From Heliopora coerulea (taxonomy: Eukaryota > Cnidaria > Anthozoa > Scleralcyonacea > Helioporidae): a DNA stretch of 64,000 nt. The translations under genes were made by a program, and so were the position numbers. The stretch is taken from the NCBI GenBank assembly GCA_030142905.1, contig JASJOG010000260.1, positions 124,001 to 188,000 on the forward strand, read 5' to 3'. Under the pieces are notes generated by a model that searched no databases, had not been told where the DNA came from, and saw only the letters and a program-made list of their open reading frames with translations. Each line of letters begins with the position of its first letter. Positions within the stretch are counted from its first letter, which is position 1. Positions 31,957 to 56,309 of this stretch are shown in pieces.

Positions 31957-33273
31957 CTTGTTTTCGTCAAAGTTGCCATGGTTTCATCGAAAAGTTTATC
32001 CAAAAAAAAACCAGAGAAAAAATGCCGACAAAATGGTCACCAGGGGGAAATATGAACCAAATACCGCAAAGCATCATTATGGACGCACAGCCTCGATTTC
32101 ATCGTTTTGATTGCTGTTCAGCATTACTCTGTTGCGAGCTGTACAGCACGTATAAACAAGACATTGTACACCTTGACAGAGTGGCATCAAGTGGTTGGTA
32201 CACGTCTTTTTGAATATTTCCCATGGTCGTTTTTTTAGAGGGATTGCTTTATTTTTCAAAAAATAATATTTTTAACAAAAATATCATCATCTCAGCGGTA
32301 GGAACGAAGAGCTACATTCCATGCAAAAATATTTACAGGTAATACTTCCTGAAAAGATTTCTGATGTCGTAGTTATTATATAATATTAATGACAATAAAT
32401 ATTCTCATATATATCTATATCTATCTATACATACACATATATATTTATATGTCTTAGCGTCTTTCCAGCTACCAGTTAGCTATCAACAGGTGGACAATCT
32501 GGAGTAGATTAATCCAATCACCTGCGAGATTTGGATCGCATATGTCTTAGTAAAGGATGTGACAAGGAAATGGCCATATATCCATCCTCATATTGGCTAC
32601 GGATGAAAGGGAAGTCACGTCCGCGCAGACAAATAATACTTGATACTTTCCCGGAAAAGGCGGACTTCCCTCAGGATAAGTTCCTGTTATTTCATGAATG
32701 TATGAAGCACATTCGGCAGTATCACATAACAGGCCGAAAAGGCCATCTCTAACAGTGCTACACAATGTTTGAGGAAGTTGATCGTCCCAGGTTCAAACTA
32801 TTTACTTTAGTGCTACACAATGTCGAACGAGTATGTTCAAACAGATTGAACGTGGATTTGAGGGACAACATTGGTCGCCAACGTAGCCAATAGGAGTTTA
32901 CATACGTGGCCATTTCCGCAATGACCTGGGACGGATGGTCTGGTTTTCTTTACCCCGAGGCTGGCCATGAGTTGATCATGTCGTCTCTGAAGTCTTTTTC
33001 TCCTAGTTTTTCCTACGGAACCATCTAAAAGTCATTCAAGTTCACAACGATGACATATAATGTTCTTGAGATTTTGCCGCAGCTGGAGTTCCATTGCTGC
33101 CCACGCGCATTGGAAGAAGAGTGCCATTATGCCCGTTTGCATTTTCTTCTTGACTGGGTTCTTCTGAGAATAAAAAAGGGAAGACTATTGAGACCTCTAG
33201 AGTACAATTTCGCTTTTAGTGTTTTCTTTGAGGCCTAATAAAACAAACGTTAGAAACAGTTCTGAATTACGAC
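31957..33273. other. STYXL1 5' flank and downstream flank of PDGF/VEGF-like gene 1
   Basis: No exon recognised. It holds an ATATCT/CTAT microsatellite (about 32401-32450) and a 15-bp direct repeat AGTGCTACACAATGT at 32754-32768 and 32809-32823. Confidence 0.5.
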
Positions 33274-36200
33274 CTACTTTTCTTTTAGTACAATATTTAG
33301 AGCTGAAGATCTGTTATTTGAGCTAATAGAATGTCCAACTGGTTTTCCTAATTATGAAATGTACTTGACTGTTATTGTATACAAACCATGATGTAAATCA
33401 ATGAAAGAACGCACATTTGTTCCACGAAAAACTCGTGTTCAGAAAGTCTGGTAATCCTTTAATACTTCGAGAAAAATATTAATCGATCACACAAATTATA
33501 AAAGAGCAAGTTTCTCACAGGAAAATACGAACCTTGCTTTATAAAGTAACACCTTCTTTCTGGCATTCGTTACCTTGTGTGTTTCTTACGTTAGCCTATT
33601 ACAAATATAGCATTTTTTAATTGACCCGAAAGCTTTTGTTTCCTCAAATATAGTCTGTCATTTTAAGAATTTTGCATGATGGCGTTTCTGAATCACCAGT
33701 GGCTTAATTATTTTGTCTACCAAAAAGTCATCTCCAGATTTAGCCGAGGATTTTGAAATACTAAGAAACTTACCAGGCCTACTGGGAGAGTACTTGTATT
33801 TGATGTAATACACAAAGCCAAAGATAAAGAAAAGGACAACGAATTCTCCAACCATCAACGCCGCAATTAACTTCCCTTGGCTGTTATCCGAGCCTGCAGA
33901 TGGAAAATGAACAGTTAATATAACACATTGAATAATGAACTTAATATTGCCCAATATTTAAAAAATGCGTAAAAAACGCGTGATCATAAAGATAAGGGAA
34001 GAACAAAATACAAATCAACGAGACACGAGATCAAAAACTGGAATCGTCACGCAAGGGAAGATTACATCTGAAAACAAGAATAAGAACTTAAGGACTTAAA
34101 GCCAAGACCAAACGCGTAAGACGGAAACAGAACCTCAAAATAAGTACCAAGCTTAATACCACAAGTCATGAAAAGATTTGAATTCAACAAGCAGGAGCAA
34201 TTACACTTAAAGCACTCTTTCTCGTAAGCCTGAGCTTGTGCATCGGGTTTTGTTCGTATTCGAAACAAACATTCCTGGGTATAAAAAATATACCATCCAA
34301 TATGACTGATCTCTCAAGTGGGGTGTTAGTGGCACAGTGATAGAGAATATGTCTCTCACTTCTGTGACTAGTTTTCAATTCCGGCTCTGAGTAACACTAG
34401 ATCTACGAGGGGTCGCCCTTACTCAACCTCCAGGGAGAATAACTTTGCTAGTTGATAGGGTTTTCCAGCATGAAAAAGACGCATTGAAATTCACAGTTAG
34501 GTCTAGCCTGAAGAAGACCAACACAATACGTTTTTTGACAACTCTAGCTTTAAAGAAAGGCAAGCTCACTATATCTCCATTAATGATCTATCATTTAATA
34601 TCAGAAGGTCCAAAGAAACCAAACCTAACCGCATTATCCTGACCTGATGTGATTGGATTGGTGGTACGAGACACTTAGCTTAAGGGCACCGTGAAGGTCG
34701 TTTACAAAGCAAGGACCGATCGTGGGTGGATATGGATTTCCTAGCAGAAAGGTTGGCCAATGACCCAAGTGATTTTGGGAGCCTATCCCCACAACCAGCA
34801 ACTTTTCGTAAGCTGTTCTCTCATGTTCAAGTAACTTTATACTCATTTCACACTAATAGGTAGTGTTCCACACATTAAGAAAACGAATGACTACAAGTTA
34901 GAGGTAGTAAAAAGGTGCTAAAGGTGGTAATCTAAGACAAACTCTTTCCTCACTACTGTACCTTTACGTCCTTCCACAGTTAGTGCGTTTCTCCTGCATT
35001 TGCATGTGTCTTCATCATAAGTATAACCAGGTCCAATTTTTGTACAATCACGTTTTTTCTTGCAGATCAATTTACACTGATCTCGGTCCAACCTCTTAAT
35101 TTCAAGATAAAGAAATATTGTTAATATACTTCTTAAGGTGTGCGTCAGGGGGAGAGGAGGACTGAAGGATGAACTGAAAGACAGGACGACAGACCGACGA
35201 ACTGATGGTCACACTGATGTATTGCTCGATTGTGTGCCGGTAACCTTTTCAAAAAAACTTACCAAGAAGCTCATCCAGTCGCAGTACCACAACGACGATC
35301 GGAAGAGAGCTTAAGCAAGCGTTGATGGGACCACTAAAATATCTAGATTCCGATCTTACTACCACTACTACTACGATTATTATCATCATCATTATCATCA
35401 TCGTTATCATCATCACCACCACCATCATCATCATCATCATCGTCATCATCATCATTATCACCGCCATCATCATCATTGTCATTATCATTATCGTCACCAT
35501 TACCATCATCATCATCATCATCACTATCATCATCATCGTCATTGTTTTCATCGATCTGGATGTTTTTGTTGTTGTCAATTCTGTTGTGGCTGATGTAGGT
35601 AGTGTTAATGTTGTTCTTGTTCTTAGATGGCGTCCATCGTAATTTTGAGAATTTCCACGACATGATTATATATTAATCATTTGACCAAAAATATCTACAT
35701 ACCCGAGGCAATCCCGAGTAAGCCTCAGCTGCATTCATCTTATTCTCAGCTCTTATTTCTCAATTTCTGATTCTTTAATCCTTTAATCCTTCTTCATCGT
35801 TTTACTATTATTATTATTACTACTAGCCTTATCCTGGTTTACTTATCTTCATTTCCTTATCCCGACACTTTCGTGAATTATATTATATTCGTGTGAGAAT
35901 CTCAAACGTAAACACAACTTACTTTCCGTCCCCGTGGATTGGGCGCTTGCAGGCTACACTCACATTTACAGCTCTGAGCATTCCAACTATACGAAGCACA
36001 AACAGAGGAAAGGAACAAAATCAGTGACAGCCATGGACACCTCTGTTAAAATTAATGCAACGAATAAAATGTATTTGACGTAGCGCAGTTCGTGGAAACT
36101 CAATGTTAATTGATCCAGGGCCAAGTTTTGGTCACACAGACGTATGGGATTTCCCGTGCCGTTCACGTTGGAATTGATCTGACTTGGATCAATCTGAGAG

Positions 36201-38743
36201 CTACGTGAGGTTAATCCCAGCTTTCGTTGAACAAGGACATCATGGCGTTGGTTCTCACTCAATAAATTGAGTATATGTTTGCACATGGTAAAAGCTGTAA
36301 AGCACTCGAATTTGATCTTATGGTCCACTTGCCAAGCAAACGATTTACCACAACCTTCTCGACTTGACTTGAAAGCAACATGCTTTACACGCGTTAACTG
36401 GCCTTTCAGAATTTCATTATGTCTTACGCAAGACGATTTTCTTCAAGTAAGACGAGATAACTTGGGATTAACAGGTTAATACCTATGTCCATGAACCTCA
36501 GACCCCGAGAGCTAGCCGTCCAAAATTTTACTCTGGTTAACTGTCAATGTTGTTTAGCAGTGGGAGATGTCTGGGGGTTAATAGGTTAACTACAGATCTG
36601 AAAAATTTCTGTGACAAAACATCCTTAATAAGAAGACCATTACGACTACCTTTCAAAAACGTGTCAAGAATTATCTATTCACCTGAAATCCGTTGGACAA
36701 CCTTTGGGAGCTTCATTGAATTTACACTTGCCGCATTTACATTCTTTCTCGTTTCGCTCAAAAAGTTCCGCTTTGCAGTCTTCGTGGTAAACACACTCTC
36801 CCTTGCAGCTAGTGTCGTTCTTCATGTAGACACGTTTTGACACAAAGCCATCGACGTTAACGGCGACCGTGTTTGTCGTGTTGCTTACACATTTTCTGGT
36901 TGACGGGCTATGGAAGTCGACAGAGCCTTGGCAACGGTAAAGTGTGACGAAGTACGGCAGTCCTTCTTCTTTGACTGGGACTACACTTGGAACAGGATAG
37001 CATTTGACATTATGGCTTCTGTTGAGCTCATCTAGTAGGGGAACAAAAGTAAAACGTTGTTTCATTCAAGAAAGATACTTCAAGAAAAAGATTAAAGCAA
37101 ATACACCTTGACGGGAATCGAAACTAGTCTTACTGAGTGAAGCACAATTACAAGTTTGAAAACTTACAGATTTGTTTTGCTACCCACTGACTGATATTAC
37201 AATATTTTGTCAATGCCCTTGAGCACAACGGCCGACACAAGCCTAACTATACTTGAGGTGAGCCTTGCCATCAATTTGCCTTCTACGAGAATGGGAATTT
37301 CGCGAAGCTCTCGTTTCTTACATCAACCTCGCCAACTCGAGTAAGTTGTAGGTTCTCTTCAAGCAATTTTCGCACTGGCCAACTCCAATTAAATCAAACT
37401 CGTTGCACCAATGCGCGATGATGAAGAATGTCGCGAATAAAGAACTTCAGATAAGCTCTTGATAAAGCCGCATAATTCTGGGGAGGAAATTAACGTTGTT
37501 TTTTAACGTGTGTAGCTTAGTACAATACACCGTTCCTTTATGGAGATCAAATAAACGTTCTGGATTATGATAGAAACAGAAATAACATTCTCGAACATGA
37601 TACGAAGTTTTGCAACAGAAAGTGTTCAAGTCTCGACCCTGATATTGCGTGTCTCGTAGGACATGCACAAGCAATCACAAAGTACTTTATTTGTGCGGAA
37701 ACGGATATGACAGCATATGGAGTGAAGTAGACTGGTGAATTACACGGAATTCAACCACTGACACACGTTGCCCTGATCCTCCTGCCTCAATTGACCGACA
37801 TTGTCTTGTTCGTTGAGTTACCAGTCAATCGTTCTCGCAATATAGAGAGAATAAGAATGGGATAAAGTAGAATTTGTTTGAGATTTTAAATCTTAAGGCG
37901 GCTTTTTAGTGAAATGTTCTGAAGTATGCAAATCTAATATTGAGCCATTTTTGACATTCCAAAGTATCACTAAGCGTTGTAAAGCGCTCAAACAGTTTTT
38001 TCCTCACGACTTCCTCAACGTTTGAACTCGTGGCCAATTAGACGTACGTACTGGAAAGCTTGGGTGATACAGGAACTATCCTTTTGATTTCAAATCCTGG
38101 GAGTGTTTCGCAATATCAAGTTAAAACACTGAACACCATTTAAAGGCCGCTAGTAAGTGTACACAGTCCCGATATCACCCGCTGAGCAAATTGGCGCATG
38201 AATTTGGGTTTTAAACAGACTGAATACAGAAGTTCAGCCTAAGAAGAATCGATACCAACTACCAACTATTATTAGATTGTTCCAGCGTGATTAATTACTG
38301 ACCATTTGAATGTTTTAAACCAGATTCGTAGGGCTCTATAGTAAGCCGATCATTTAACAAAGTACCAGATGGCTGACTCGCCTTCAGTAAAATAGTTTAA
38401 ATCTGATTTAGAAGAAATACGTTAATTTTCAAGTCAGGACTAGACGAAAACCGTTCAAAACATATCAACAGACGTAGAAACTGGAAGTCAAACTCCACAA
38501 TCAACATGCATGTATTTATTCCGAACTGGAGCAACACTTCAAAACAACGAACGCGTTACACCAGTTATACAACATAACTGGGCGATTCGTTTTTAAGACA
38601 ATGAACGAAGGAAAGGATTAAATGATCGCTAATTTACGTTAACTAACGAAATCTACAGGCGACAGCAGTGAGGCAGACTTACCAGACACAGATAAACCAG
38701 CATGAACCAGAAGAACTAAGCATACAATGGCGATTGAGAACAT
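33274..38743 (-). CDS. membrane-anchored PDGF/VEGF-like ligand 1
   Basis: Exons on minus: 38743-38683, 37031-36683, 35986-35923, 35094-34962, 33893-33774 and, tentatively, 33347-33274; 801 nt, 266 aa. Residues 1-20 are a signal peptide (MFSIAIVCLVLLVHAGLSVS). Exon 2 encodes a PDGF/VEGF-type domain: first Cys C31, FVTLYRC (C54), QGSV, RKCV, and NDTSCKGEC. Compared with VEGF-A, the two interchain cysteines and the C61/C104 knot pair are absent. CKCGKC and CKCEC motifs follow, then a Cys block ending DTCKC, like VEGF-C BR3P repeats. A transmembrane helix lies at about 211-233 (contains GE) with a short basic tail. Exon 6 starts GKPV, resembling GKQD in the sister gene, but the match is weak. If the donor at 33773 is not used, the frame reads on to a stop at 33658-33660. 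Receptor and function are unknown; a PDGF/VEGF receptor family kinase is the natural candidate. Confidence 0.8.
34326..34400 (+). repeat. possible tRNA-derived SINE head
   Basis: TGGCACAGTGATAGAG resembles an A box and TTTTCAATTCCGGC a degenerate B box, with TCTCTCACTT between them as in many tRNA-derived SINE heads. It lies in an intron of the PDGF/VEGF-like gene 1. It is too degenerate to be a working tRNA. Confidence 0.35.
35358..35545. repeat. (CAT/ATC)n trinucleotide microsatellite
   Basis: About 180 bp of imperfect ATC/CAT/TTA units, in an intron of PDGF/VEGF-like gene 1 between exons 3 and 4. Poly-Ile, poly-Met and poly-Asp ORFs on the two strands are artefacts. Confidence 0.9.
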
Positions 38744-38888
38744 CTTTGGTGAATGGATCAGTGTGTAAATAATCAGCCTTGATTGCTGCTGGAAGTCGTG
38801 GATTGCAAGTTAAAGGGATGTTAAAAAGTTGTAAAACGTTTCCTTCGGAGATGATGTTTGTTTGTAGTAAGGACGACAAAGTCAAGTT

Positions 38889-38898
38889 CCTTTTATCC
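38889..38898 (-). promoter_or_regulatory. TATA-like box of PDGF/VEGF-like gene 1
   Basis: Minus strand GGATAAAAGG about 150 bp upstream of the ATG at 38743. Position and sequence fit a TATA box if the 5' UTR is about 120 nt. Confidence 0.4.
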
Positions 38899-41800
38899 CG
38901 AAGTCTTCGGCTGTAAGTGTTCCGCTACTCCGCCAGGAAATGCTGTTAAGTCACACCCATATCAAATATCCAAGTTATCTCAAATTATACGCCCTCGAGA
39001 TTCACGACAACCAGTTTCCGGACGTTTCGTCAATTAAGGGTCAGGTCAGTCCCATTTTAACAACCAGCAGAGTTGCACTGTTATCGTGGGCGTCCCAGGC
39101 CATATCCTAGCACAAATGAGGATGCCATAAAGCTAAAATATTTACGAAAGGTCTCGCAAATAAAACAATTATCTTTGACAGAATTTTCTCGTGAAAATAA
39201 CCACTAAATTGTTTGACCAAGTATGCTGTCGAATGCCTTCCCACCGAGTTTACGAATTCTTTTCATTTGGACTCCTTCAAACATAGAAAGACTGTTTTGT
39301 AAACTGCACATTTTCTAGGGAACTCTTAGATATAGCGTGGTATCGAAAATGCGTTGGCCTACCTTCCGAGTTACCAAAAATAGAAATTGTATTTGTTTTA
39401 TGGTGGGTACTATCGAAACTTGTGTCTGGATCATCACTACGATTTGATCCTCTTCGTTGTCCTTCCATGGCAGTTAAACTCTTTCCAGTGAAGAGATTTC
39501 CTTCCAGTGGGAAGAAAATGTCTGGCGTAACCTACAGTAAATGTGTAGGATCCAATCGGTCCGTCCAGCAAGTGTTAATGATAAAGGTTTTAACCGTTTG
39601 TAGACCGGCAATGTCCTTCTACTAAATTAAGTCGTCTGGCATTGGCCAGAATAAAACCGTAAAACTGCAGAGTCCTGTCATCCCAGAAAGTGTTAACGAA
39701 ATACTTCTGGTACGTTAACCGAGACAATATGTACTTGCAATATATCTTATTATGAAATCCAATGGCAAAGGATTTTAGTCCTTTGTTTGGTAGAGTGTTC
39801 TCGAAGCCATTCTTACTCAACTCGATACGTTACCCGCACTCATAGTACAATAGTATTTTAACCTCTTCTTGTGATTGTCTCGTGTACACTCTAAGCGTGG
39901 GTGGCTGATGGTAATTTAAATGTTAACCAAGTGGCTAGAAGTGGTTAGAAGGGTTTCAAAAGTGAATAAAATATCCCGAGTTTATTCAAAATAGAAACTA
40001 ATATTGATGCATTCACAGGATAGTGTACCTAAATTCATACAATATTCAAGTTATCAAATGTACGTGAGTAATATACCAAGTCACTTCAAAATACCGAATA
40101 TGTAAATGCATAAAAGTCATTGTATGATCAATACTTCCTTTACATTTGCTTAGTACAAAAACCTCGGGAAGTCTTGTTATTTCACAAGTATCCCTCACTG
40201 ATCCCATGTTCAACATCGATTTATTTTGGTCGACAAAGATAAAACTCCCTTTCGCGGATTCAATATGCCAGTTTTAGGAAGTAAGTTAGTATATATCCAA
40301 TATAAAATGAAAAACGATAAACACGAATGACACGTGGGAAATTACCACACCTTGCAAAATAATGGAAAAATCGAAACTACGATTAAAGAATCAGGATTAC
40401 GCTGTTGACTCGGATATATTGCTGGAAAGTAAAGTCCCGTTAACGTTTATGCGTTTTTAAATGTATCTATCCATTTTCATTTGATCTAAAATGCATTAAA
40501 AGGTTTGTGTCCACAGGAGCATATTTATATCTCATTCGCTGTCCACACAAGAACCCTTAAAATAGTTTTCAAAAGTCTCCATTTTCGTTCATCCACACGA
40601 AAAACTATCGTTTTTGCAGCTTTCACTTTCGATGGCCTTTTCGAAAGCCTCTGCTTTCTATCGAAACAAATCCTCTAAGTCCCCATGTCGACGGATGGGC
40701 AAACCGGATAAAAAGGTTTGACTTTTCGTGCGGAAACGCATAGGCGTTGACGAAGCTTTTTTCTGTCCTAAGATTATCAAGTATACTGTTCAACTGCTTT
40801 AAAACTCGCAAATGGTTCAGTTTCTTTCCTTAGTTACGATGTTTTCCCGCAGTTCACTTTAAAATTTTACAAGTACTCTAAAGTGCCATGGTGAATACCT
40901 TTTCAATCAGTATTTAAGTGTAAGTCTTAAAATATGGCATCATCTTGTCTTCCTTGTGCTTAGATACGATTCGAGGCAAAGAGACCAAAGTTCATACAAA
41001 CGAGATTTCTCCCTTCATGATTCACCAACAAAATTTCCCTTCTCCAACCTGTCATAGTCACGACATCGAGGTTAAACCCCAATAATACTTTAAAACTTTC
41101 ATCGATGTTTTTGTATGTCACTTAAATTGCACTCAATACATAGATGAAGTGCTACAGTGACAGTTTAGTAGTTTGTCATACTGCGGATGTGAACCGAAGT
41201 AAGTTCTCATGCGTCCTATCATTCACTTTATGGAAGCGAAATTAAATGTTCCCGTTGACGCCTAACCGTTTCGAGTCGTCATCGACAACTACGCGAGGAT
41301 TGAATGAAAAACAATAATTTCATGGGTGTTGATGATTGTTTGATGGATTAAGCCTAGATGTAGTTCGGTGATTGATCTGGAGGCTGTAATGTTTGATTTA
41401 AGCAGCATACGTTATAATTTGATGTGGTAGCTTGCTTTCACAAGTGAAGCATAGTTCGTAATAAAAGATTTTCATTCGCAATTTCATTTTGTCGAGTTCC
41501 TTACAAACCTCAGGAGCAATAAGGCAAGTTACATGTTTGACACTCGGCGGATATGCAAGGGGATTCGTATATGACTGGTGAAAACTCGACAAGGAGAATG
41601 AAGCGGACTCTATGTTCCATGACCAGAATCAATGAGACTCTTCCATCGAAAGCAATAACCAGTTAAAATACTGGACTACAAATATGTCACACATGAAGAT
41701 AAATATTGTCTGAACGAACGTAGACTACTTGTCCAGCAAATATTTACTATCATTAATTCCTTGAATATCTGCATGGTAATAAGTATAAAACTAGTAAGAG

Positions 41801-41902
41801 AACTCATAAATTATTGCTTCAATCGGGTGCAAAATGCTTGAGACATTTATCAACTACTTGGTATTAATTTGCTTTCAGACATGAAAATGATCCTAAAAGG
41901 TT

Positions 41903-42025
41903 AACTTTTCCCCTCACTTCCCCTCCCCCCTGTATCAATGTTGATGTCCTGTGATGGCTGAGTGCTGGACATATCAAATTTATCTGCTTGACCAACATTG
42001 CTAGGGAGGGGGGAGGGAAGGAAAA
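41903..42025. repeat. C/G-rich imperfect hairpin
   Basis: TTTTCCCCTCACTTCCCC...CCCCCT faces GGGAGGGGGGAGGGAAGGAAAA, with CAATGTTG/CAACATTG further in. The fold spans about 120 bp. Confidence 0.5.
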
Positions 42026-45000
42026 TCAGACAAATCATTCTAGACTTAATGACACAGTTCACCTTCCGTACGAACGATTGTCTCAACACATTTTGCTCCT
42101 GATTGTTGCAAAGCTGGGCAGTTAGGTCGTTTACGAAGAGATAATTTGCCAACCGTGCTTATGGTTATTGACATTCGGTTAAACTTCTCAAAAAGCCGTT
42201 GATATAGACGAAGTCAAGGCTTGGTATGCAATTCAAATAATTGTGCATTTGGATTTATGCGTGTAATAACCTACAATGTTTGTAATATCCCAAGGTACTA
42301 AGACCGAATGTAGCTAGGGTAAAATAAAATTGAAGATAAAATCAGGAGGCAATCCCTTCAAAGAACAACTCATGAGGAACCCTTAAGTAAGGGCAGTGGG
42401 AAAAGACGGCTAGATTCTTGCATAAAAGATTCTTTTAAATTTGATGTTTCTTACAAGGTTTGTGCTTGTGCTCAAGAAATTCTACTTGTATGCTTTCATA
42501 AGTGTTACCAATTGTAAACAAATTTGACTCTTTCAGAAAAACATCGACAATTCCATCTCGATTTCCTACTGTGTACCGTAATTTTCCGAAAACTCAACTT
42601 TCCTGAAAAAACCCCTGTTCTTTAAAGAGCCAGAGTTGAGACAGAAACCGATCGTAATTGGGTTGTTGATTGTATCTTTCAGAGATCTGGGAAAATCTAA
42701 TCGATCATGGTTCCAGATCGTTTAACCATTTCCTTCTTTCAAAGAAATTACAGACCAAGAGGCAATGGACAACAAAAAGTTGGCAACAATCTTTCGGCTA
42801 AAAATTGGGCGTAACGTCTCGGTATTTTTGTTTGATGTTTCAACACATCTAAAAAGACGATTCAGAAATTCCATCTTCTTTCGATGAGTACGGTTATCTT
42901 TGAGAACGACTGCAAGTCCCATACAAAAGTAAGTACAAGAAACACTTTTGGCAAACAAGCTTAATGCACGAACAAATAAGAATCCTAAGCACGCAGTTTC
43001 TGCCTGCAATCAGAGTGACAGACCAAGAAATTGTTGTTGTGGGCCAGGAACCAAATGTCCAGCTGAGGTGTACACAAAATATTGAAAGAAATACCTCAAA
43101 AAAAAAAACCCCGCAGTGAGTGAGGGAATCTCAGAGCAAGGTTGATTTATGTTATCCAAGTGGGCAAAAGAAATGTTTGATACGGTTTTCTAATCACATT
43201 ACAAAGGAAAAGCTATAAACGTACGTAAACTAAACATAAACTTACTAATTATAAACTTATACACCGTAATACCCAGAATTTAGTTTCGCTATAAATAAAT
43301 AAAGCACGTTTGCCTAGGCAAACCCGCATACCATCGTAAACTGAAATTAAATAGATGCAGTGCTCCCCCCCCCAGTTCGATTTCTAGTGAGTAATTTTCA
43401 ATCGACACTGATTCGCATCTTGACCCTCGCATCTTAGATTTAACCTTCATGTAATCAGACGCCTATTGAAAGGATTAAAATTTTTAAAGGATTAAAGTTT
43501 TCGGGCAAAAGTGTTGAGAAACTGACTGGGTGACGAAAACATTTTACGTCATATACCGCTGTGCGATAGCTTAACAGACGTCTGAGGCGGAAAATCTCGC
43601 CGAATGCATCAGAGGATGTCAGCAACAGGAAGCTTACTGTACGGTCGCACAAATCCTGTTCGATAGCAATGGTCGACATCTACTTAACCTATTGGTACTG
43701 AAGGAATCAGAGGTTAAATTCAGACGTACCATCACACAGATATCGTGTTAACATGAGACTACTGTCAACCTTGGCTTTATCTCTTGACAGTAACATCGAA
43801 TCAGGACACGACAGGTTACAAGTTTGACTACCAAATACTAAAAGAACTGGGGTCAAATTCTTTGTTAGGTGAACTCAAAGCTTATAGCGAACGCCTATGT
43901 CTTATTTTTAACTCAAGTACATCAAATTATCCATATTTCCATCAACAAAAGCCTCAGACTGTTTATCTGGGATAACTAATTAGCTTCAATCCTGTTGACT
44001 CATTGCGGTTTTTTAATGACCCGAAAGTATGTCAAGTGAACGCCCCATTTGCAAACGTCGACCGCGCCATTATCTTTCGATTTCCATGTCAGCTCAAAAC
44101 CAGTTCAACTGCGTCATTTATTGCTTGTTGTCATTAAAAGTATATTTTAAGTAATTTAAGCGTAAGCAAAGTTTACTGATAAATTAGATCATAGTCAACA
44201 GCACGTCAGACTGATTCAGTCTGATTGTTATTTGATGATCTCAATGATGGCGCCAGCTAAGTAAGTCTAATCTATTGACAGCTGTCTGGAGTGCACTTGA
44301 TCAAATAAGACCAAGAACAGATTAAAATCAATTAAGTAGTCAACACAGCTATGCCAAATATCATTTTCAAGAGTCCAAATTTTATTTGCCGCAATACAAA
44401 CGAGCTTCAACCAATTACTTTTAGGTCATTAACCTTAGGCTAGACCATCCAATTAAAAGTTCGATAGAAGAAACTATCTGTCAGGCAGACAAAAACACGA
44501 GACTCAAGCAGCGAATAAATTCCCAACTTGGTTTCTGTTTTTTGATCTCTTGTCCAGGAACGGACTGATTAAATTTGCTGGTCTGATAAGAAGATTTAGA
44601 AAGACGTTCCTACCAGGTTGTCCTTGAGCTCTTTGTTTCAAAGATGGTGCCACAAAGAGTCAACCTTTCTGGCCTCAAAAACATGGCATGATTTTGGTAT
44701 CCGTGTGTGGCCGACTGTCAACCGAATGACATTGAAACAACTACGCTTTAAAACACTTGTTGTGCAATTTCCCAGAGAAGTATACAATATGTTGTATTTT
44801 TATCTCAAGCCCCCCCCCCCTCGTAATTCCGCTCCGCCGTCCCTGTGCATGGCAGTTTGCTCAGCTGTTTCCTCTCGTGTGCGGCGAAGTTTTCGTGAGA
44901 ATTTCACCTCGCAAGACCGTGAGGAAAATATCTGTCATGTTTGATATTTTTTGCTACGCGAGGCAGATTCCTCTCCGTGCGCGGTAGTCGCGTGAATCTG

Positions 45001-46436
45001 GCTGAGCCGGATTAATCAACTAGCCAATAAAATTGGGTGCGGCGGACTTAAGAACTGAAAAATCACCTGAATAAACAAGGACATGAGCCAGCACAAACAA
45101 CGACCAAACTTGGAAATAACATATACATCGATATGATATTTGAGAGCTTATTTTACGAAGACAACTTCGAATCCACTTCAGTAAACAAGCAGATCTTCGG
45201 AAAAACTTTTGGTTTTTATCAGGGTAATCGGTTGAGTGAGTATTGAGTTACGCATGAGCCAAGTTTACCTTTCCACATCGCTGTAATCATACTGTAACAA
45301 TCTGAGAGAGACGTGCTAATGGAATATGATGAACAGGAAAGAAACTAAAGTAATAGGATAACTTTCTATATCAAATAACTATAAGGATATAATTTGAGGT
45401 GCGCCGACTTACATGGGTGGGTTTGACTCTTCCAAACTCTCAACCCAATTCCTCTTTTTAAGAATGTTTCAAAAGCACTTGAAAAGCTGTGAAAACATCA
45501 ATTTACGAAGGAAAGGCAGTAAAGCCTGGATTCAATCAATGCTATAGACAGATGTCGAAAAGAAAACTTCAGGAAGCTCTTCTGGTCCTGAGACAACGCT
45601 CAGTCTTAAAAGTGATCAGAGAAGACAGTTTCAAAACTCGAAGCAAAGAAATTGAGAACGTGGAACACTAGTCTTTCCGCATTGAGGTGTCCTGTGATTG
45701 ACGAAAGATGATTAGAAAATAAAGACCGAAAGAGAAAGAGAAAGAGAACAGGATTTCCTGGAATACGGCCTGATGATAGATTGTGAAAGATGATCTGGGA
45801 TTTGCGGTACTTCTCTTTTTACATATAGAAGCAATTGAAGTTGGGTAATGACGACATGTAGAACTTCTATATTTGTCACCGTTTGGCAATGGGCAGTAAT
45901 TCCGGTAATTTCAAACAAGGAAGACAGTTTCAAATATTGAGAGAAAAAATGCAGGTAGAACTGACCTCTTGGGCGCACAGGCAATAAAATTAATTAACCT
46001 TAGTAAATCACATGTACTACTTTGTAAGAAAGGTTATATCAAACGAACTTACGGCAGTCATCGAACAAGTTTCAATTTAGAGAGTTAGTCTTTTGTGTTC
46101 CCTGTTAAGTGTTCCATAACATTCAATCAAGAGCTTCTGAACAGGATCCTAAAACTTCCCAGTATTACTTGTTCTAGATACCTGGAAAAAACAATCCAGT
46201 GATCATGAATTTCAGAAAACATTTGACAAACAATTCAACTGCTTCATCATTTAAAAGTCGAATTAAGCATTTCTTTTCGCGTATTTTTTTTTTTGATAAC
46301 CTTATAAAATTAAGGAGTATGTAGAATTAATTGTAAAGAAAATCTAAATATCCTTGATCGCCCTTATCAAGCAATAGCGATAACCAGTATTAAATAAAAT
46401 ATAAAATATAATAGAGCAGAAATACAGTATCCTGAA

Positions 46437-46466
46437 GACCAAAGATGGTTTTTAACCATCTTTGGT
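46437..46466. repeat. 12-bp-arm palindrome
   Basis: CCAAAGATGGTT and AACCATCTTTGG separated by a TTT loop. Confidence 0.6.
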
Positions 46467-47099
46467 TAAACCAAAACTCAAAACATGTTTATGGTTAGAC
46501 TTTATTTTAAGGTCGTCATCATATCAACAGCAAACTATCAAGTTTTCTATCTTTTTCTGGCACGATGTCACCTGTTTGACGAGAAAAATCATCCGGCTTT
46601 AGCCTGAATAAAATTGCAAGATTAAGCCAGATGGAAATAATGGGAGGCTGATCCTGCCGCGAGAGACTTAGCCATATCTGTTTTATACTTCCTAAATAAA
46701 GATCACTGTTACTGTTGTGTCAACCATAGAGATCATAAATTAACTAGAGGGTGAGTTACAGTTAAATGTCACTCTACATCGGGGGAAACATTGATTGCCG
46801 TCGTATTGGATAAATTGGGGCGCAAAGGAAACATGCCCGGATGAAAAGTTCAAGGTCGTGGTCAAAACCCACTTCATATTTGTCTATTTTTTTCTTTATT
46901 TTTTAAAACAAGAATGTAAAACAATTAACGCAAAAAGAATAACCAATGTAAAACAGTTATGGCAAAAGTAATAACCGACTAATATCCAGAATAAAGCGGT
47001 TTTTCTGCCATACAATTAATGAAAACAAACACGAAACAATTTTCCAAAGACCAGTTGTTTGACCTTGATGTTATCGAACAGACGGAAAAGGGGCTGGGG

Positions 47100-47185
47100 A
47101 AGGACAATTTGCTATCCAATTTACTCAAAATGATGGCGCTCAATTTCACCCAATTTTAGGCCCCATATGATCTCTGTGGTGTGAA
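47100..47185. repeat. dispersed repeat fragment, copy A
   Basis: TTTACTCAAAATGATGGC...CAATTTCACCC...ATGATCTCTGTGGTGTG matches, in reverse orientation, the segment at 51.62-51.71 kb. Confidence 0.55.
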
Positions 47186-47401
47186 CATCAACGAATTAAA
47201 AATCCTTGAAGGGATCAAAGGGATCAACCGTTTCCTGAGATGGCTCTCGAACGTATTCGAGTGCTCTCGCGCGCCGTTCACGAATCCCGAACGACTCCAT
47301 CTCCAGTTGCCTCACAACTGGAGTTTCCCACGATATGTACGTAATCGCGGTAACAGTATGAATGAACACACGCATTAATCCCCCTCTCTTCCGGTTTGTG
47401 C

Positions 47402-47408
47402 TATAAAG
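47402..47408 (+). promoter_or_regulatory. TATA box of PDGF/VEGF-like gene 2
   Basis: TATAAAG about 87 bp upstream of the ATG at 47489, allowing a 5' UTR of about 55 nt. Confidence 0.5.
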
Positions 47409-47488
47409 CCAAACTGAAAGGTATGAAATAATATAATCAGTTTATATCCTGCTACAAGTTTGTTGTAATAAGAGGCTTGGTGCTAAAG

Positions 47489-50400
47489 ATGAGTCACGAT
47501 ATGTGCTACACCGTTTATACTTTGACGATCTTAGTCATTTTCTCGAAGGGAATTTCTACAGGTGAGATTTGTAGATTAACTAGATGATCTTTTAGTTCAT
47601 GGTTTACGTCGTCTGCTAAATTTGACGTTATCAAGGTTTGAACTTCTTATCAGTGTCGTTACCTTCGGGGCTCGCACGAGGGATACTCAGAAGCCATGCA
47701 CGAAAGAATGAATATTTGGCTTTATATTTCTTTGCATAAACGATATATGGTTTATATATGATATTCTAGCGGTTGGCTTCGCAACAGTATCAACGTTTTG
47801 CAACAGTAAAGAGAATTTTTCACTAAACAACGGCAAAATAAACGAAATGTTTCAACCATCCTTGAAGCAATTATGTTCATAGCTTAAATAACTCAAATTT
47901 ACAACAACGATTAGCTGTTGTTGTTTTGAAATTCGAGCAGATTCTCCTCTCCGTCTGTCCGTCACCACTGTGGTCCGTCGAATAAGCAATCACAGTCAAA
48001 TCAATTATAGAGAGTCGATTTACGTTTGCAATTATTTTCCTTACTTATTCTCAAACCAAGAGTATAAAAGAGCATAAAAGAGTATTCAAATGAGCACATA
48101 GTATGCATAACGATGTCGGCTGATGGCTTCATGCCTGAAAAACCCACGCTGAATTTCCCTAATATGGCCGCTCACTTTATTGCATCCCAAACCACTCAGA
48201 CCGAGTGTGCGAGGAGTTGACAGATTCTCTGCCAAGAGGTTTTGATATTCAGAAGCTCAACTGGAGATTAAGGCAAATCGGAAAACGGGAGATAAATATA
48301 TAATGAATCCGAAAGCCCATACGAAAATAATCCTGTCGCCGAAATGCGATAACGTTATTCAAAATCTCAGCATGATGGTTTCGAGTTACTCGCCAGTAGC
48401 ATTCGTCAAGAGTTCATAGGCGTTGGCCTTCCGTGAAATAGTACTACGTTATCAGGCTGGAATTTTCCGCTCTTGAAAGGAAGTGGACGTTCAAGCATCC
48501 GTTTTATAGATGTCTGATGAATATTCTGAAGCGCTCACGACTGCAAATTGGGGGCTCGATGATACAAGCAACGACAACTATTACAACTAAAATATTTAAC
48601 TGTGGTTCCAGAAAATGTTTAGAAAGGTAATAAGAAAGCAAAGTCGAAACTACGTTAAGCATACTTAGCCACATAGCTCCGTAAAAGCTCTAAAAATGAA
48701 AGAATTATTACACGAAAATTGTTTTGATGACTTATTTTTCAGCCGTCTAAACTCCGATTCGAATGTCAAACTTTTGATGAGTTCAAGCTAACGCACAGCA
48801 GGTAAACAAAAGCATTTTCTCACGTGAATTAAGTTCGACTCGTGTAAAATTTCCTTGATGGTTTGACGAGGACCTTAGGATTGAATTTCTGGATTCAAAA
48901 AGTACCTGTTCATTCAGAAGAACACCAGATGAGACTTCCGTGGTCTACTATAGCATTTCCACCGATGTCACAGAGCGTGAGAGTTACTCTTGAAGTGTAT
49001 TGCACAATTTTAAAACAGTAGGTAAATCCCCGAATTCTGTTAACATTTTTATTCTACGTCAAGACGAACGTCCAATCGTCGCCGGGATTCTAAATGATTT
49101 GCTTAAAGGTAGTCGAATTAAAATTTCGACAAGATTCACGACATACCGTTCACGTGAACTCTAACTCTTCTATTCGAGAGGTCTTCTTTTGGCAAATTAA
49201 AACGTCCGGTGTTTGCCAGAATAAGGTGATAAAGACCTCTAAGGATGGAAAGGGATTAAAATTCTCCGTGGTTTCTGCGTAATGTATCATTTAAAATACA
49301 GAATGCCTTAGTTTTCATTTAAAATACAGAATGATTCCCAGAGTTTAACTGAAACTCAGAATACAAATGTTCACAACATTATGATTTTTGATGCCTCGCA
49401 TTTTAAAATATTCCATTATATAAAGATCGTCGTTCAAGTTACATTTGACGTAAATTTCTATTGTTGATGAAGCTACGTTGCGACACTTTCCCTTCCCAAA
49501 GTTTCCAACTTTTACTTCTGGGAATTTGACGTAACATAACCTATGACGCCAACTCAGCAGAAACGCGATGTTAAAGTTAAATAAGACGCGAGACTTTATT
49601 GACCGATTTAAGGATTGTTCCAAAAGGACAAGTCTACCATTTTTTATACAAGTCCTGTGGTTCCTTCTATCTTGCTGTGAAAATATGGGTACAAGATTTG
49701 TTATTTACTTGTGGTGTTTGCGTTTGTACTAATAAAGAAAGCCCATAGTGAAATATGACTCAACACATGTTTTGCTGAAGTGTCTGTGAAAGACTGAGAG
49801 CAATCGATGATTTCTCTGACATCTTGAGAACTCTCAGTCTGACGGAGTGTTAGTACGAAGTCGATCCCTCTGTTTAACAGAAATCATATTTCATCTCTCT
49901 GACAGGCGTAAATCTTAATTAGTGCAGGTCGGTGGTTTATTCTTAATTATTTATGACAACGCCCAAAACATGTTGAGAGTAAACACTTCAACGGTACTGG
50001 ATTATTCATTCATACAAACAAGACGTCATCGCTAGACAAACGTCTTGAGTATTTGATAATTGACGTATGCCGCAAGGGGAAATCAACTTGCTAGAACTAA
50101 CGCCATTAAGATATACAAGATCCGAACAAAGTGAATATACAAGTAAAAGTTTGCATGAAAAGTGATAAGTTATAAAAGAAAAGAGTCAGAAAAATTTACT
50201 TTATGGTCCGTCTAATCTGCAATTTGACATATTAGAAATGTCATCAAGCATGGATTTATTCAAACCCACACTTACCTGAGTGCAAGGTGACGTTAAAATA
50301 AATGAATAGTAAACATGGACCTATTTGGAGGATCGTTATGAACTAAAAAACCTTGACCAGCCGACAACTTCAAAAAATATAAGAGAAAGCAAATTCCGAA

Positions 50401-53400
50401 AACGAAGGCCATCTTTTAACTTAAGATTTAAGTTAGCGAAAGATGAAAACTGTGAAATGGTGATATTTCGATTTTATTGCAAAATCATCTTCAGACCAAG
50501 TGCAAATGATTTTGCAATAAAATCGAAATATCACCATTTCACAGTTTTCATCTTTCGTTAACTTAAATCTTAAGTTAAAAAATGGCCTTCGTTATGAACT
50601 AAATTAGGCATAAATCAAGTGAGCAAACCCACCCACATCATGTATACTTCTAAAAAGCCATGCTAAATTGCATGGCTGTGAACGTCTCTACACTGGGGCT
50701 TAAATATTTTCAGGGTCTCTGCGAAGTCCCACCTACACCGGTCCACCCGAACGTGGGCGCCAAGATTTGGAATGCGTAACTTCTGCTATATACTCGCAGA
50801 ATAACGCCACTGCCCTTTCATGAGGGATATTTTTTTCGGGATTCTGTGAAGTTATCACACATGATCACATATTGAGTGGATTGACCTGAACGATCTCGAG
50901 AATAATCGGTCGTTTAAGGATTAATTAAGCCCGTTCGCCATATAACCCGGACTAGCCTCAGGGATTTTGACGCTCAATCACGATTCTCAATCAAGTACCA
51001 CTTCAATGAAGAACATACCTGTAACTATGAACTTTAGCCTTCTTAAGATGAACTCATATATTCGCATCTGAAAACTGTGAAAGAAATTCCACACAAAGGT
51101 TTAATTAGAGAACCGTAGTTGAAAAGTAGGATGTTTGGCTAATTTAATATTAAAAATATTAAAATAAATTATGTTAAGAAGGCTAGCTACAGTTTTCGGC
51201 TCTGCAACCGCGATGTCTTTGTAGGTCAATTCAACTAATTTTCTTGTAGTCTTTAATTTGGTGGGGAAGGGGTCCACGTTTATCCTGTAGCCAAACCAAA
51301 AAATTTCTGCCATAGGTTTTAATGAAATTTTTGTATTTTTCAATTTTGAAGAGAAACTGCAAGCAGTCGTGGATCTTAAATTGCATTGTTTTGACGTCCA
51401 GCCTGCTTAGTAGTCGTACCTGCTTATGTCCCAGCAAAAAAGTTCAAAATGAGATTACCGAGACACATTTGTAATTCACGCACAGATACACAGGAACCCG
51501 AATTTGAAGCTGATAAGTTTCTTGGCTACCTCATTAAGAAGAAAAATCCCCAAGAATTTAAGGTTACATTCCTTCAGGTTATATTTTCTGATACTTAGCA
51601 ACATAAGTTCGGCACTTGAAGTAGCCAACACCATAGAGATCATATAAAACTACAGGAGGCATGGGGACGAAAACTGGGGTGAAATTGAAGGCCACCATTT
51701 TGAGTAAATTGAGGGGGGGGGGGGGAGAATTGCTCTTCTCCAGGTCCTTTTGCGTCTGTTGGAGTACCTCGCGGTCAAACAACTGTTGTTTAGAGCAGCG
51801 GTCCCCAACCTTTTTTGCGCCACGGACCGGTTTAATATTAGACAATATTTTCACGGACCGGCCTTTAAGGTGTGGCGGATAAATACAACAAAATAAAATG
51901 ATACGACGGCATAAAAACTGTGGTATATTGTAAATATAATAATAAACGTGAATCCACTGTGTACTCATATGCAACTTTATTAGCAGTGTCTTTGTAACAT
52001 CGCGCCAACAAAGTTATTTATTCTTTCTGTGCGGCCCGGTACCAAATGACGCACGGACCGGTACCGGGCCGCGGCCTGGGGGTTGGGGACCGCTGGTTTA
52101 GAGAACTGTTTCGTGTTTATTTCCGTTAGCTGTGTAGCCGAAAATGGCTTCTTCTTCGACATCCCAGTGATTTAGATTCGATAAAGCACCTACTGCGAGT
52201 TTTTTTAAATGACTTGAAAAACTAACTCTTTAAGACGTTGGTTTTGTGTAAGAAGTTTGAAAATTGATGTTTTCTTAAGCCGCAAAAGTTTGAGCAGAAA
52301 AGCGTATTTTTATCACATTTAAAAATACGGCACGGTTGTGATTTTCTTTTGTATTTTCCTAGTTAAATATTTCATTAAAAATTATTCTTATGCAAGTTTC
52401 AAATTCAAACTGAAAGAATTTTTTCTTCAAATAAATGAGGTTGATTATCTAAAGCAGTGGTTCCCAACCTTTTGCTTCCCAGGGACCCCTTCACTGATTT
52501 TAGAAAAACTTGGCGGACCCCCTTCCCAACTGAAACTGCAGCTTTGCCGATTTCATTGCTTCATTGCTTAAAATCTCTCCTCAAAAGATGTATTCAGGTT
52601 TGCTTTGCTCAGTTCGGCATGGAATAAAACCAAATTTTAAGTACTCAACATTGTATCCTCGTAGTTTAATCTTCCCAGTGGCAGATCGTTTCGAACTCAT
52701 GATTAATTTATGGGCAGAAAAACGCTCGAGAACTTTTCCTGTACGAACAAAGCTCGGGGTGAACAGGCGAAGCGTGGTTACATGTAACATGAGATGAAGG
52801 TGTGACCTGTTAAAACCTCAAAATTACGAGTTCTTATGTTACACTTACACCCTTCGGAATTTGCGATATTGACTGGTAGTTTGCAATAAAAAATAGTTGA
52901 ACCAATATTGCAGCTTGTCATTTGCCCAAAAAAATAGTTACCTTCTGCAGACCCCGTCTCTTTTGCGCGGATCCCTGGCGAACTCCTTCATCTTGGCGGA
53001 CCACCAAAAATTGTTTGCGGACCCCAGGTTGGAGACCACTGATCTAAAGGATATTTCCTGCAATGATTGCAACTATTTTGTCCGATGTAATCGTAACTCG
53101 TTTTAATAAGTGTAGATAGATTCGATAATATTGGTTGTAAGCGTTCTGTGGAGTTTACATTTATATACTGTAATATACTAGATTATTTATAATTTAACAA
53201 GGACCATCGTTGACGACACCACTGTAGGTAAAGATGTCATCCTTTTTAAAATGATTAATAAATAAACAAATAAATAAATAAATAAATAAGTAAATAAATA
53301 AATTCGAGGATGGTCGAACGTTAAAGAATTCTCACTGAAATGTATTATGTCGGGATAACATGCTCTCAATTTTCTTTATTTTATTTTACCTTCCATATTT

Positions 53401-55816
53401 CACAGGAATCGCACAGAAAGAGCTCAATGAAAAGCACAACGAATTCTGTAAACCCCGTCCGACGTTGGTCGCCATAGATTCTCCATCGTTTCAACTTTTC
53501 CCGTTTTTTGTAACGCTTCAACGTTGCGGAGGCTCAGCATACTATATCTCACCAGTGACTATGACGTGTGTTGCGAACACCTCGGTAGACGTCAAGATCA
53601 ATGCACGAAACCTCATAAGCTATGAAAAAGAAACTGTAGTTGAGAAAAACCACACATCGTGCAAACAGCAGTGCGTTAATACTGCGGACATGTGCAATCC
53701 CAAGACGCAATACTGGGAGCCCGGTCGTTGTGCTTGTTCGTGCAAATATCAAGATTCGCCCCCAGAGCCTTGCTCAGACAGATTCAAGTATGTAAAAATA
53801 AAACTTCAGTTGCACAATTATTCAAGCAAAGAAACGAAAAATGGAATGAAAACGTTTTCGACATTAACGCCGTTAAGGAAATGTGACGTTTCCTTTCGCA
53901 TGTTATGTCATAACTTGTTCCACCTGTCATTTCGCATGTCAGGTCACATGTCGTGTCATGTGTTATGTTATGTCACGTGTCGTTCCACGTACCTCACTAA
54001 TGTTATGAGTCATGTTCAAATGTCATATCATATAGAAATTCTAGAAAGTCATTCTTGGAAATGTTGTTCACTTTGAGAGTCCACTTTGTCACTACTCTAA
54101 TATTTCGATCACAATTTTTCAAGGAAATGAAGTCGCTTTTTTTTAATAGTGTTGCGTCTTGCACTGTTTATGACACGACATTTTCAACGTTTTTTAATCG
54201 TTTAGGTGGGATGGAATCCGTTGTGAATGCAGGTGCAACGTACAGCCGCACGAGCTCAACTGTAACGAGCAAGGAAAGGTGAGTTGCCTGAACTTCAAAG
54301 TGCAATTTCCCTACCACGCTCCCACAATACTGCACAAATAAAAATCTCATAGTTTGTGATAGGTTTTTCGTTGCAACACGTTTGTGGAAAGTCTGTGAAC
54401 AACTTTGAATAATGGTGTCATTTCAAAAAATACCCACAAGTTCTTTCCTGTCAACCTTTAGGGTACTACCTTGTTAAGTTGAACGGCCATATCAGCAGTA
54501 TCAGGGTTGTTGGGACATTTGAAATTAGTTTGCGGTTTTTCCTACACGAATTGAATGATTTTGAGATATTTTTGCTGCAGCAGAGAATAAAACTAGTGAG
54601 ACATGAAAGGAAATGGCTGGGTAATAAACGGAATGGAGAGAAAGTGAATAATAATACTGAAGTGAGAAGTGTTCAAAAATTTGGTCTATTTGGTCAAAAA
54701 TTAACAGTTTGTACGCTTTCAAACCAGTTTTAAAAAATTGAAACCGGTTTGAATACTATGAACTTAATGCTAAAAAACACTTGGAGCGTGTACGTGAATC
54801 CTTTACAAGTAAAAATATGCCAGTTGCAAATATAACAGGAAAGCTTCGTACATGAAAACGTTCAAATTTGATGTGTAAAATATTGTTTTGCATGTGAAAT
54901 TTCATGTTTAATTTCCCTAATCGCTGGAGTGTTGTATTATTCCAAGATATGGAGCGGAAAAAAATGTGGATGCGAGTGTTCGCCGTCGAGGGTCATCATA
55001 TGCAGAAGGAGAAATAAATTCTTGGATGAAAAGACCTGTAGATGTGTGGATGGACAACTGATATTAGGACCACGTAAAGGTACGATGTTACATAACTTGC
55101 ATTGTGGTTCGATACGGTATGCAGACGAAAGATACTAGAAAAATCCCATTGGCACTGTGTCCCTCAAAATGCCTGAAAACGACCGTGATGCCAAAAAACA
55201 TTACCAGCCGACAACTTAAAGAAGTAGAGCAAGAAACATACTCCAATCAATACCATCTTGTAAACTCAACATTTGAGCTATCAGACAAGACGAAACAAAT
55301 CTCGGTAATATTTTGACTTCATTTCAAAGTCATTGTCAAACCTAAAATAAAGTTACCATGATTTGTTTCGTCTTGTCTGTTTGCTCAAATATTGAGTTCA
55401 CAAGATGCTGTTCATCGAAGTATGTTTCTTGCTCTACGACCACGATGTAATGTCACATTTCCGTCAATATTTCTCCCAAACTGCAGCTAACTAACATGTG
55501 TTTTTTTCGTTTTTTTTTTCTGGAATAGATGACGAGACTTGCGTATCAAAATTTTTGCTGTATGGCATAATTATTGGCGAGCCCCTTGTGCTGCTAGTTG
55601 TACTCGACATATGCCTGTGCATGAAAGGTTTTGGATTTTTCTATGTTCTACGAAAGGCCATATCTCGTTCCAGGAAAGGTATGTGAATGGCTGTCGTTTT
55701 GACACACTTATAATAACTATAATAATAACAATAATAATAATAATAATAACAATAATAATAATAATAATGTGGGCACTGGAGTAGGAGAAGTACAGCTTCA
55801 GCCTACTACATATTTC

Positions 55817-55859
<43 letters not shown>

Positions 55860-56309
55860 CGATAATGACAGTGGTAAGCGTGAAAGTTATATTTAACACA
55901 CGAAAGTATTTTTTAAAAATTTTTTTGTCAAAAAAAAAAATATCAAAAAAAGAAAAACCAAAACAAAACAAAAAAACAAAAAACAAACAAACAAGGTTAA
56001 GCTAGCGAAATTGAACTTTGCTGTGATTAAGTTCGTTCGCAGTCCACTAAACAATTTTTAAAATTGCAATAAACATTTGAATTAATGAATGAACGAAAAC
56101 ATTTATTTTTGCAGGGATATCCAATTCTGTGTAAGCTGGCTTAAATAGAGCCCTGCAAAACTCTGAAACTTGACCAAATTGTAAACTAAAGGATCTGAGA
56201 GCTATCTCACAAAGCTTAATGTGTTTAACTGTTTATTTATTTTTTTCTTTCAGGAAAACAAGATCCGCCGCTTAGCCCGAGTTCTCACGAAAGGACAACG
56301 TATCTGTGA
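47489..56309 (+). CDS. membrane-anchored PDGF/VEGF-like ligand 2
   Basis: Exons: 47489-47561, 53406-53787, 54206-54278, 54947-55079, 55529-55678, 56254-56309; 867 nt, 288 aa, phases consistent and identical to the sister gene at 33-39 kb; exon 4 is 133 nt in both. Signal peptide at residues 1-24. Exon 2 carries the PDGF/VEGF-type domain: C39 in FCKPRPTLVAI, FFVTLQRC (C65) GGSA, MTCVA and NHTSCKQQC. Relative to VEGF-A, CHPIETLVDI, LMRCGG, LECVP and HNKC line up, but F59, S68 and A69 replace C51, C60 and C61, and the C104 position is not Cys. CACSC, CECRC and CGCEC repeats follow, then CX(n)DEKTCRCV, like VEGF-C BR3P repeats. Transmembrane helix at about 229-251 with E238 and D247, then a tail ending PPLSPSSHERTTYL. 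The 5.8-kb intron 1 is full of transposable elements. Predicted type I surface ligand or precursor. Confidence 0.85.
50348..50588. repeat. ACCAGCC-family hairpin element, copy 2, with 15-bp direct repeats
   Basis: Head ACCAGCCGACAACTTC, then 88-bp near-identical arms (50401-50488 and 50506-50593) around a 17-nt loop. The 15-bp TCGTTATGAACTAAA occurs at 50333-50347 and 50589-50603, as expected of a target duplication. The high arm identity suggests recent origin. Confidence 0.75.
51600..51715. repeat. dispersed repeat fragment, copy B
   Basis: Carries CACCATAGAGATCATAT and GGTGAAATTGAAGGCCACCA, the inverted counterpart of 47.10-47.19 kb. It ends in a run of about 15 G. Confidence 0.55.
51796..52095. 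mobile_element. hAT-type non-autonomous element with perfect TIRs and 8-bp TSD
   Basis: 300 bp bounded by the exact 15-bp inverted repeat CAGCGGTCCCCAACC / GGTTGGGGACCGCTG and flanked by the 8-bp target duplication GTTTAGAG (51788-51795 and 52096-52103). TIR start CAG and 8-bp TSD are hAT hallmarks. No transposase ORF. Confidence 0.92.
52455..53041. mobile_element. second hAT-type element with 8-bp TSD
   Basis: 587 bp from CAGTGGTTCCCAACC to GGTTGGAGACCACTG (TIRs with two mismatches), flanked by ATCTAAAG (52447-52454 and 53042-53049). No intact transposase; the ORFs inside are short. It sits about 360 bp from the first hAT element in the same intron. Confidence 0.9.
53248..53302. repeat. (AAAT)n microsatellite
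   Basis: AATAAATA repeats just upstream of exon 2 of PDGF/VEGF-like gene 2. Confidence 0.8.
53890..54030. repeat. CATGT/GTCA-rich cryptic repeat
   Basis: Recurrent GTCATGT, GTTATGTCA and CACGTGTCG words in intron 2 of PDGF/VEGF-like gene 2. Confidence 0.5.
55192..55437. repeat. ACCAGCC-family hairpin element, copy 3
   Basis: Head ACCAGCCGACAACTTAAAGA at 55203, then long arms of about 85 bp (about 55224-55308 and 55353-55437) with AGACAAGACGAAACAAAT in one arm and its complement in the other. Imperfect flanking ACGACCGTGATG / ACGACCACGATG may be a target duplication. It lies in intron 4 of PDGF/VEGF-like gene 2. Confidence 0.7.
55705..55860. repeat. (AAT)n trinucleotide microsatellite
   Basis: Two blocks of ATA/AAT units split by a unique segment of about 40 bp, just after exon 5 of PDGF/VEGF-like gene 2. 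Confidence 0.9.

Follow-up and report, generated by a model that had tools for sequence, protein, structure and literature searches.

The divergent genes and their surroundings

The window analyzed here is a 64,000-nucleotide stretch of the Heliopora coerulea genome (C180:124001-188000, C180 being our label for the contig). It carries two genes, A on the reverse strand and B on the forward strand, each predicted from the DNA to comprise six exons. They are divergently transcribed in a head-to-head arrangement, and the 8.7-kb spacer given in the preliminary description is borne out, with 8,745 bp between 38743 and 47489. The intron phases, described earlier as common to the two genes, are indeed 1,2,0,1,1 in both, and all junctions are GT..AG. 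The predicted proteins consist of 282 (A) and 288 (B) amino acids. Exon 1 provides the start codon and a signal-peptide-like segment in A (38683..38743, -; hydropathy 3.32 over 11 residues) and, more weakly, in B (47489..47561, +; 2.22 over 11 residues). The domain order had been given as signal peptide, cystine-knot domain, CxCxC repeats, one transmembrane helix and a short tail. We recovered a signal-like exon, one Cys-rich domain, CxCxC-type exons, one hydrophobic exon and a short tail; the part of this description that does not hold is the full knot.

The end of gene A had been placed at 33274. We consider this end improbable and dropped it: a stronger-looking acceptor, TTTTTTATTCTCAG, precedes 33163, and on its account exon 6 was chosen at 33042..33163 (-), with the frame checked, as the predicted cytoplasmic tail and stop. 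This tail is weakly similar to the tail exon of gene C, a paralogue on the same contig (a score reached by 28 of 2000 shuffles), which also spoke for this end. Exon 6 of B (56254..56309, +) encodes a predicted short cytoplasmic tail and stop, and its product resembles the tail of neither A nor C. In both genes, read-through from exon 4 into intron 4 would add a short in-frame end, such that secreted forms are possible by retention of this intron.

TATA-like boxes are present upstream of both start codons, TATAAAG for B (47402-47408, +) and ATAAAAG for A (38890-38896, -). With separate boxes, each gene would own its core promoter, rather than depend on one common promoter in the spacer. A promoter scan of the spacer with bacterial models, which are unsuited to an animal genome, led nowhere. 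The introns of gene B harbor several repetitive elements. Two mutually related palindromic elements, probably MITEs, are found in intron 1 (50346-50593) and intron 4 (55193-55437); their arms measure 93 and 85 nt and are 96% and 87% complementary, respectively. Two further elements in intron 1 (51797-52100 and 52456-53040) have ends like CAGNGGTTCCCAACC, which we take to be typical of hAT-type transposons. Directly beside gene B lies a 528-aa open frame (57405-58991, -) with a match to polycystin-type cation channels (PKD_channel, 143.5 bits; Polycystin_dom, 68.2 bits). None of ten other frames of the window had a Pfam match, and the Rfam and tRNA scans of the window were empty.

VEGF homology domains and their missing cysteine pair

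Exon 2 (36683..37031, -, in A; 53406..53787, +, in B) encodes the domain that had been ascribed to the PDGF/VEGF family, and the two exon-2 proteins are 40% identical. Profile searches were performed over the animal's own genome (430 Mb, 769 contigs). A profile built on three further VEGF domains from the same genome (those of gene C and of the loci C223 and C135 on other contigs) scored B at 73.4 bits and A at 38.3 bits, compared to best scores of 27.8 and 14.8 bits, respectively, among 1000 cysteine-fixed shuffles of each. The top two PDB matches of a profile built from A and B alone were VEGF structures (E-values of 0.00097 and 0.0012); at E up to 10, seven of its eight matches involve VEGF, and the eighth is a ribosomal protein. 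A five-domain profile, which includes the three normal VEGF domains, reached VEGF-A at 2e-9 and matched human VEGF-C and VEGF-D as well. These profile comparisons support the ancestry proposed earlier, although the Pfam PDGF model (PF00341) matches neither protein, even at E up to 10. Searched against the genome at the same threshold, PF00341 gave ten matches, with A and B absent among them. One of these (C223) is above the cut-off and nine are below; C180:345109 is among the latter, as are three array loci of C180 that are nearly identical to one another.

Single-sequence searches were less productive. Neither A nor B alone retrieved a PDB chain at E up to 1, and the VEGF domain of A gave no candidate in a large protein database whose animal coverage is uncertain. 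Pattern scans gave 12 matches in viral contigs and 40 in prokaryote genomes, none of which was confirmed. AlphaFold, given the exon-2 sequence of B in a two-sequence alignment whose second row was A, produced a model with a pLDDT of 37, which is uninformative. In a tree of eight VEGF domains, for which the C334a and C334b sequences (loci on a further contig) were each assembled by joining two exon frames by eye, A and B split from the rest with a value of 61, too weak for dating the duplication. Judged by domain homology, A and B are divergent paralogues of the VEGF family.

In the knot of VEGF-A, the bond Cys26-Cys68 passes through a ring formed by the bonds Cys57-Cys102 and Cys61-Cys104. Alignments of five and of eight domains show that A and B retain Cys I, II, IV and V, four of the six cysteines that make up the knot. 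The position of Cys III is occupied by Val in A and Ala in B, and that of Cys VI by Gly in A and Gln in B, whereas both cysteines are present in all five of the domains from C, C223, C135, C334a and C334b. The domains of the array genes D1-D3, also on C180, keep Cys V and VI, lack Cys IV, and have cysteines beside, not in, the Cys III column. The inter-chain cysteine is likewise absent, as Ser stands next to the Cys III position in both A and B. Thus, of the "cystine-knot domain" of the preliminary description, the VEGF homology domain stands, and the full knot is rejected for both proteins since Cys III and Cys VI are replaced in each. That both partners of one bond are gone, and this in both genes, suggests that these two positions really pair. 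As A and B lost the same pair, it is likely, judging from the alignments, that they fold without the cystine knot of the family.

There is an engineered counterpart. According to the relevant passage of PMC2759523, citing Muller et al. 2002, the C61A/C104A variant of VEGF-A (PDB 1MKK) lacks, like A and B, the bond that corresponds to Cys III-Cys VI; it has a similar structure with no knot loop and unreduced stability, and folds more poorly. It differs from A and B in that it is a laboratory mutant of a secreted protein. Presumably, this mutant retains its inter-chain cysteines.

The CxCxC motif is found in exon 3 of both genes (35923..35986, -, in A; 54206..54278, +, in B) and in exon 4 of B (54947..55079, +). 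Exon 4 of A (34962..35094, -) is a Cys-rich spacer. The fourth exons had been called identical; they do have the same length, 133 nt, but their sequences differ. The Pfam CXCXC model scored B at 14.3 bits, just under its cut-off of 15, and did not match A. When the repeats were compared in pairs, cysteine-fixed shuffles reached the score in 0 (B-C), 73 (A-B) and 33 (A-C) of 2000 cases. Repeats of the CxCxC/BR3P type after the VEGF domain are a feature of the VEGF-C/D-like subgroup, and A and B have it. Human VEGF-C and VEGF-D similarly combine a VEGF domain with C-terminal Cys-rich silk-homology repeats; they differ from A and B in being secreted, with a full knot and no transmembrane helix. 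Cnidarian VEGFs, as characterized in the main text of Rauniyar et al. (2023, PMC10328876), are VEGF-C-like and resemble A and B in the succession of VEGF homology domain and BR3P/CxCxC repeats and in that the inter-chain cysteines are often missing, but unlike A and B they mostly have the typical knot.

Anchor exons in a local cluster

The two genes do adjoin, as the preliminary description had it, yet they belong to a group larger than a pair. All six VEGF-domain loci that we found on contig C180 (A, B, C and D1-D3) carry an anchor exon. In gene C, which lies 165 kb downstream of B, a single exon (C180, ~345.06-345.62 kb) encodes both the VEGF domain and the repeats. By inspection of the sequence, this exon can be joined through a phase-1 donor to an anchor exon at ~346.22 kb, with a tail exon following at ~347.45 kb. 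The array genes D1-D3 lie between B and C, at 269, 288 and 307 kb of C180, ~18.8 kb apart. Their VEGF-like exon can be joined directly to the anchor exon at phase 1, without CxCxC repeats. Aligned over 3.2 kb, the D1 and D2 loci show 13 mismatched positions and 6 gap columns; D3 is further from both, with 62 mismatched positions and ~590 gap columns. The D copies have a minimal VEGF-like domain with an unusual cysteine pattern (CxxCxxC, without Cys IV), and a second, degraded anchor-like frame follows array copies 1 and 2. A diverged extra copy of the VEGF-like exon of the array genes is present at C157:1401666-1401896, with no D anchor within about 4.6 kb downstream. It is likely that A and B arose by duplication within this local cluster of anchored VEGF genes (A, B, three D genes and C).

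The predicted transmembrane helix is encoded by exon 5, at 33774..33893 (-) in A and 55529..55678 (+) in B. The 19-residue mean hydropathy of the segment is 2.56 in A, 2.50 in B, 2.91 in C and 2.55 in D. The anchor exons were compared in pairs against 2000 hydropathy-preserving shuffles, the counts being 10 for A-B, 7 for B-C, 6 for B-D and 0 for C-D, compared to 73 for A-C and 1824 for A-D. When 142 other hydrophobic open-frame segments served as the background, A-B and B-C outscored every one and B-D and C-D outscored all but one at most, whereas A-C (5 and 9) and A-D were indistinguishable from chance. At the inner membrane edge, Asp followed by GFxYxL is common to B, C and D, and A has only GFxYxI. 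In A, B and C, the short juxtamembrane stalk that precedes the anchor contains a basic pair, RK. By these sequence comparisons the anchor exon is common to B, C and D; A is joined to the group through B, because A-C and A-D fall within chance. The earlier claim of a membrane anchor on both copies is hence supported by related exons of paralogues, strongly for B and by way of B for A. A Gly-Glu lies inside the predicted helices of A (MVGEFVVL) and B (IIGEPLVL) and is absent from C and D; its buried acid could have a role in helix pairing.

Loci on other contigs were searched for an anchor in limited flanks, with C334b left aside. At C223, C135 and C334a the repeats continue into stops or splice sites, and the motif of the B and C anchors was not found in flanks extending to 132.0 kb (C223), 2112.0 kb (C135) and 4376.0 kb (C334a). 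Hydrophobic frames are present in these flanks, and the scan would miss an A-like anchor because A itself fails the motif.

A possible contact-acting VEGF

In the predicted models, A and B are not secreted without an anchor, unlike canonical PDGF/VEGF. Since they lack the full knot and, in these models, are not secreted, we class A and B apart, as VEGF-homology-domain proteins without these defining traits of canonical PDGF/VEGF. Domain homology, loss of the cysteine pair, common intron phases and related anchor exons (B, C and D; A with B) are present in the DNA. We consider it an even matter whether A and B are single-pass membrane VEGF paralogues without the III-VI bond that would probably signal by contact to neighboring cells; our confidence is held at this level because the anchor of A is tied in by its likeness to the B anchor alone. 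With splicing, topology and disulfide pairing as we infer them, each would be a type I membrane protein whose VEGF domain is borne on a Cys-rich spacer and held at the surface by the transmembrane exon. The membrane would hold two chains close as a non-covalent dimer, in replacement of the missing inter-chain bond, and a VEGFR-like receptor on the next cell would be engaged by contact. Cleavage of the stalk may offer an optional release of the ectodomain of A or B.

Ligands of receptor tyrosine kinases that are anchored in the membrane are known. SCF and CSF-1 are displayed on the cell surface and may also exist in soluble form. The likeness of A and B to them is in the proposed mode of action only: SCF and CSF-1 have a four-helix cytokine domain, whereas the domain of A and B is homologous to VEGF instead, and we know of no reason to expect a relation in sequence or fold.

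The anchor might, alternatively, be a processing device, with membrane precursors that are shed and an active ligand that is soluble. Many EGF-family ligands are made as membrane precursors and shed, VEGF-C itself undergoes processing, and the RK-containing stalk of A, B and C, short and next to the membrane, would suit such an arrangement. RK is, however, a poor proprotein-convertase site, and its codons are located at a splice donor, which may account for its conservation; we regard this reading as unlikely. We are similarly doubtful that A and B are no VEGF agonists at all, being decoys, antagonists, or proteins of cell-surface recognition or adhesion. Their strong divergence, the loss of Cys III and Cys VI and the lack of an inter-chain cysteine would be in keeping with such a role. 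Yet the engineered VEGF-A without the same bond retains similar structure and stability, by the passage in PMC2759523, and inter-chain cysteines are commonly absent in invertebrate VEGFs, by the main text of PMC10328876.

A less probable reading still, which we consider improbable, is that the joined models are wrong, either because splicing does not connect the hydrophobic exons with the VEGF exons or because the main products are ordinary secreted, VEGF-C-like proteins. Usable splice sites abound, exon 4 is followed by in-frame ends, and C223, C135 and C334a have repeats with no recognized anchor exon in the flanks examined. Against this, B, C and D1-D3 have related anchors, each following a phase-1 junction, and the anchor of A is like that of B; wrong models would have to explain this by an odd coincidence. 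As for earlier reports, no title or abstract among the matches listed describes a membrane-anchored cnidarian PDGF/VEGF, in a search with preprints and most subscription papers outside its scope, a result that does not prove absence. Neither "transmembrane" nor "tether" appears in the main text of PMC10328876, where both uses of "anchor" mean other things, and the portions of PMC8764167, PMC5979509 and PMC8870065 that we consulted hold nothing on such a protein.

The contact-signaling interpretation can be extended to the whole group, with slightly less than even confidence: the local cluster would make tethered VEGFs that act by contact, and A and B would be a natural "knotless" VEGF, with the disulfide lost as in 1MKK. 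A natural pair devoid of one knot disulfide tests whether the knot serves folding only, as the engineered mutants suggested. VEGF/PDGF ligands are regarded as diffusible, with a range that is determined by splicing and by binding to the matrix. A cluster of VEGF domains tied to the membrane would bring contact signaling into the VEGF/PDGF family. If the proposal is true, VEGF signaling in this animal would have a secreted and a cell-contact branch, and a cnidarian would provide a case of VEGF acting over short distances in an animal that has no blood vessels.
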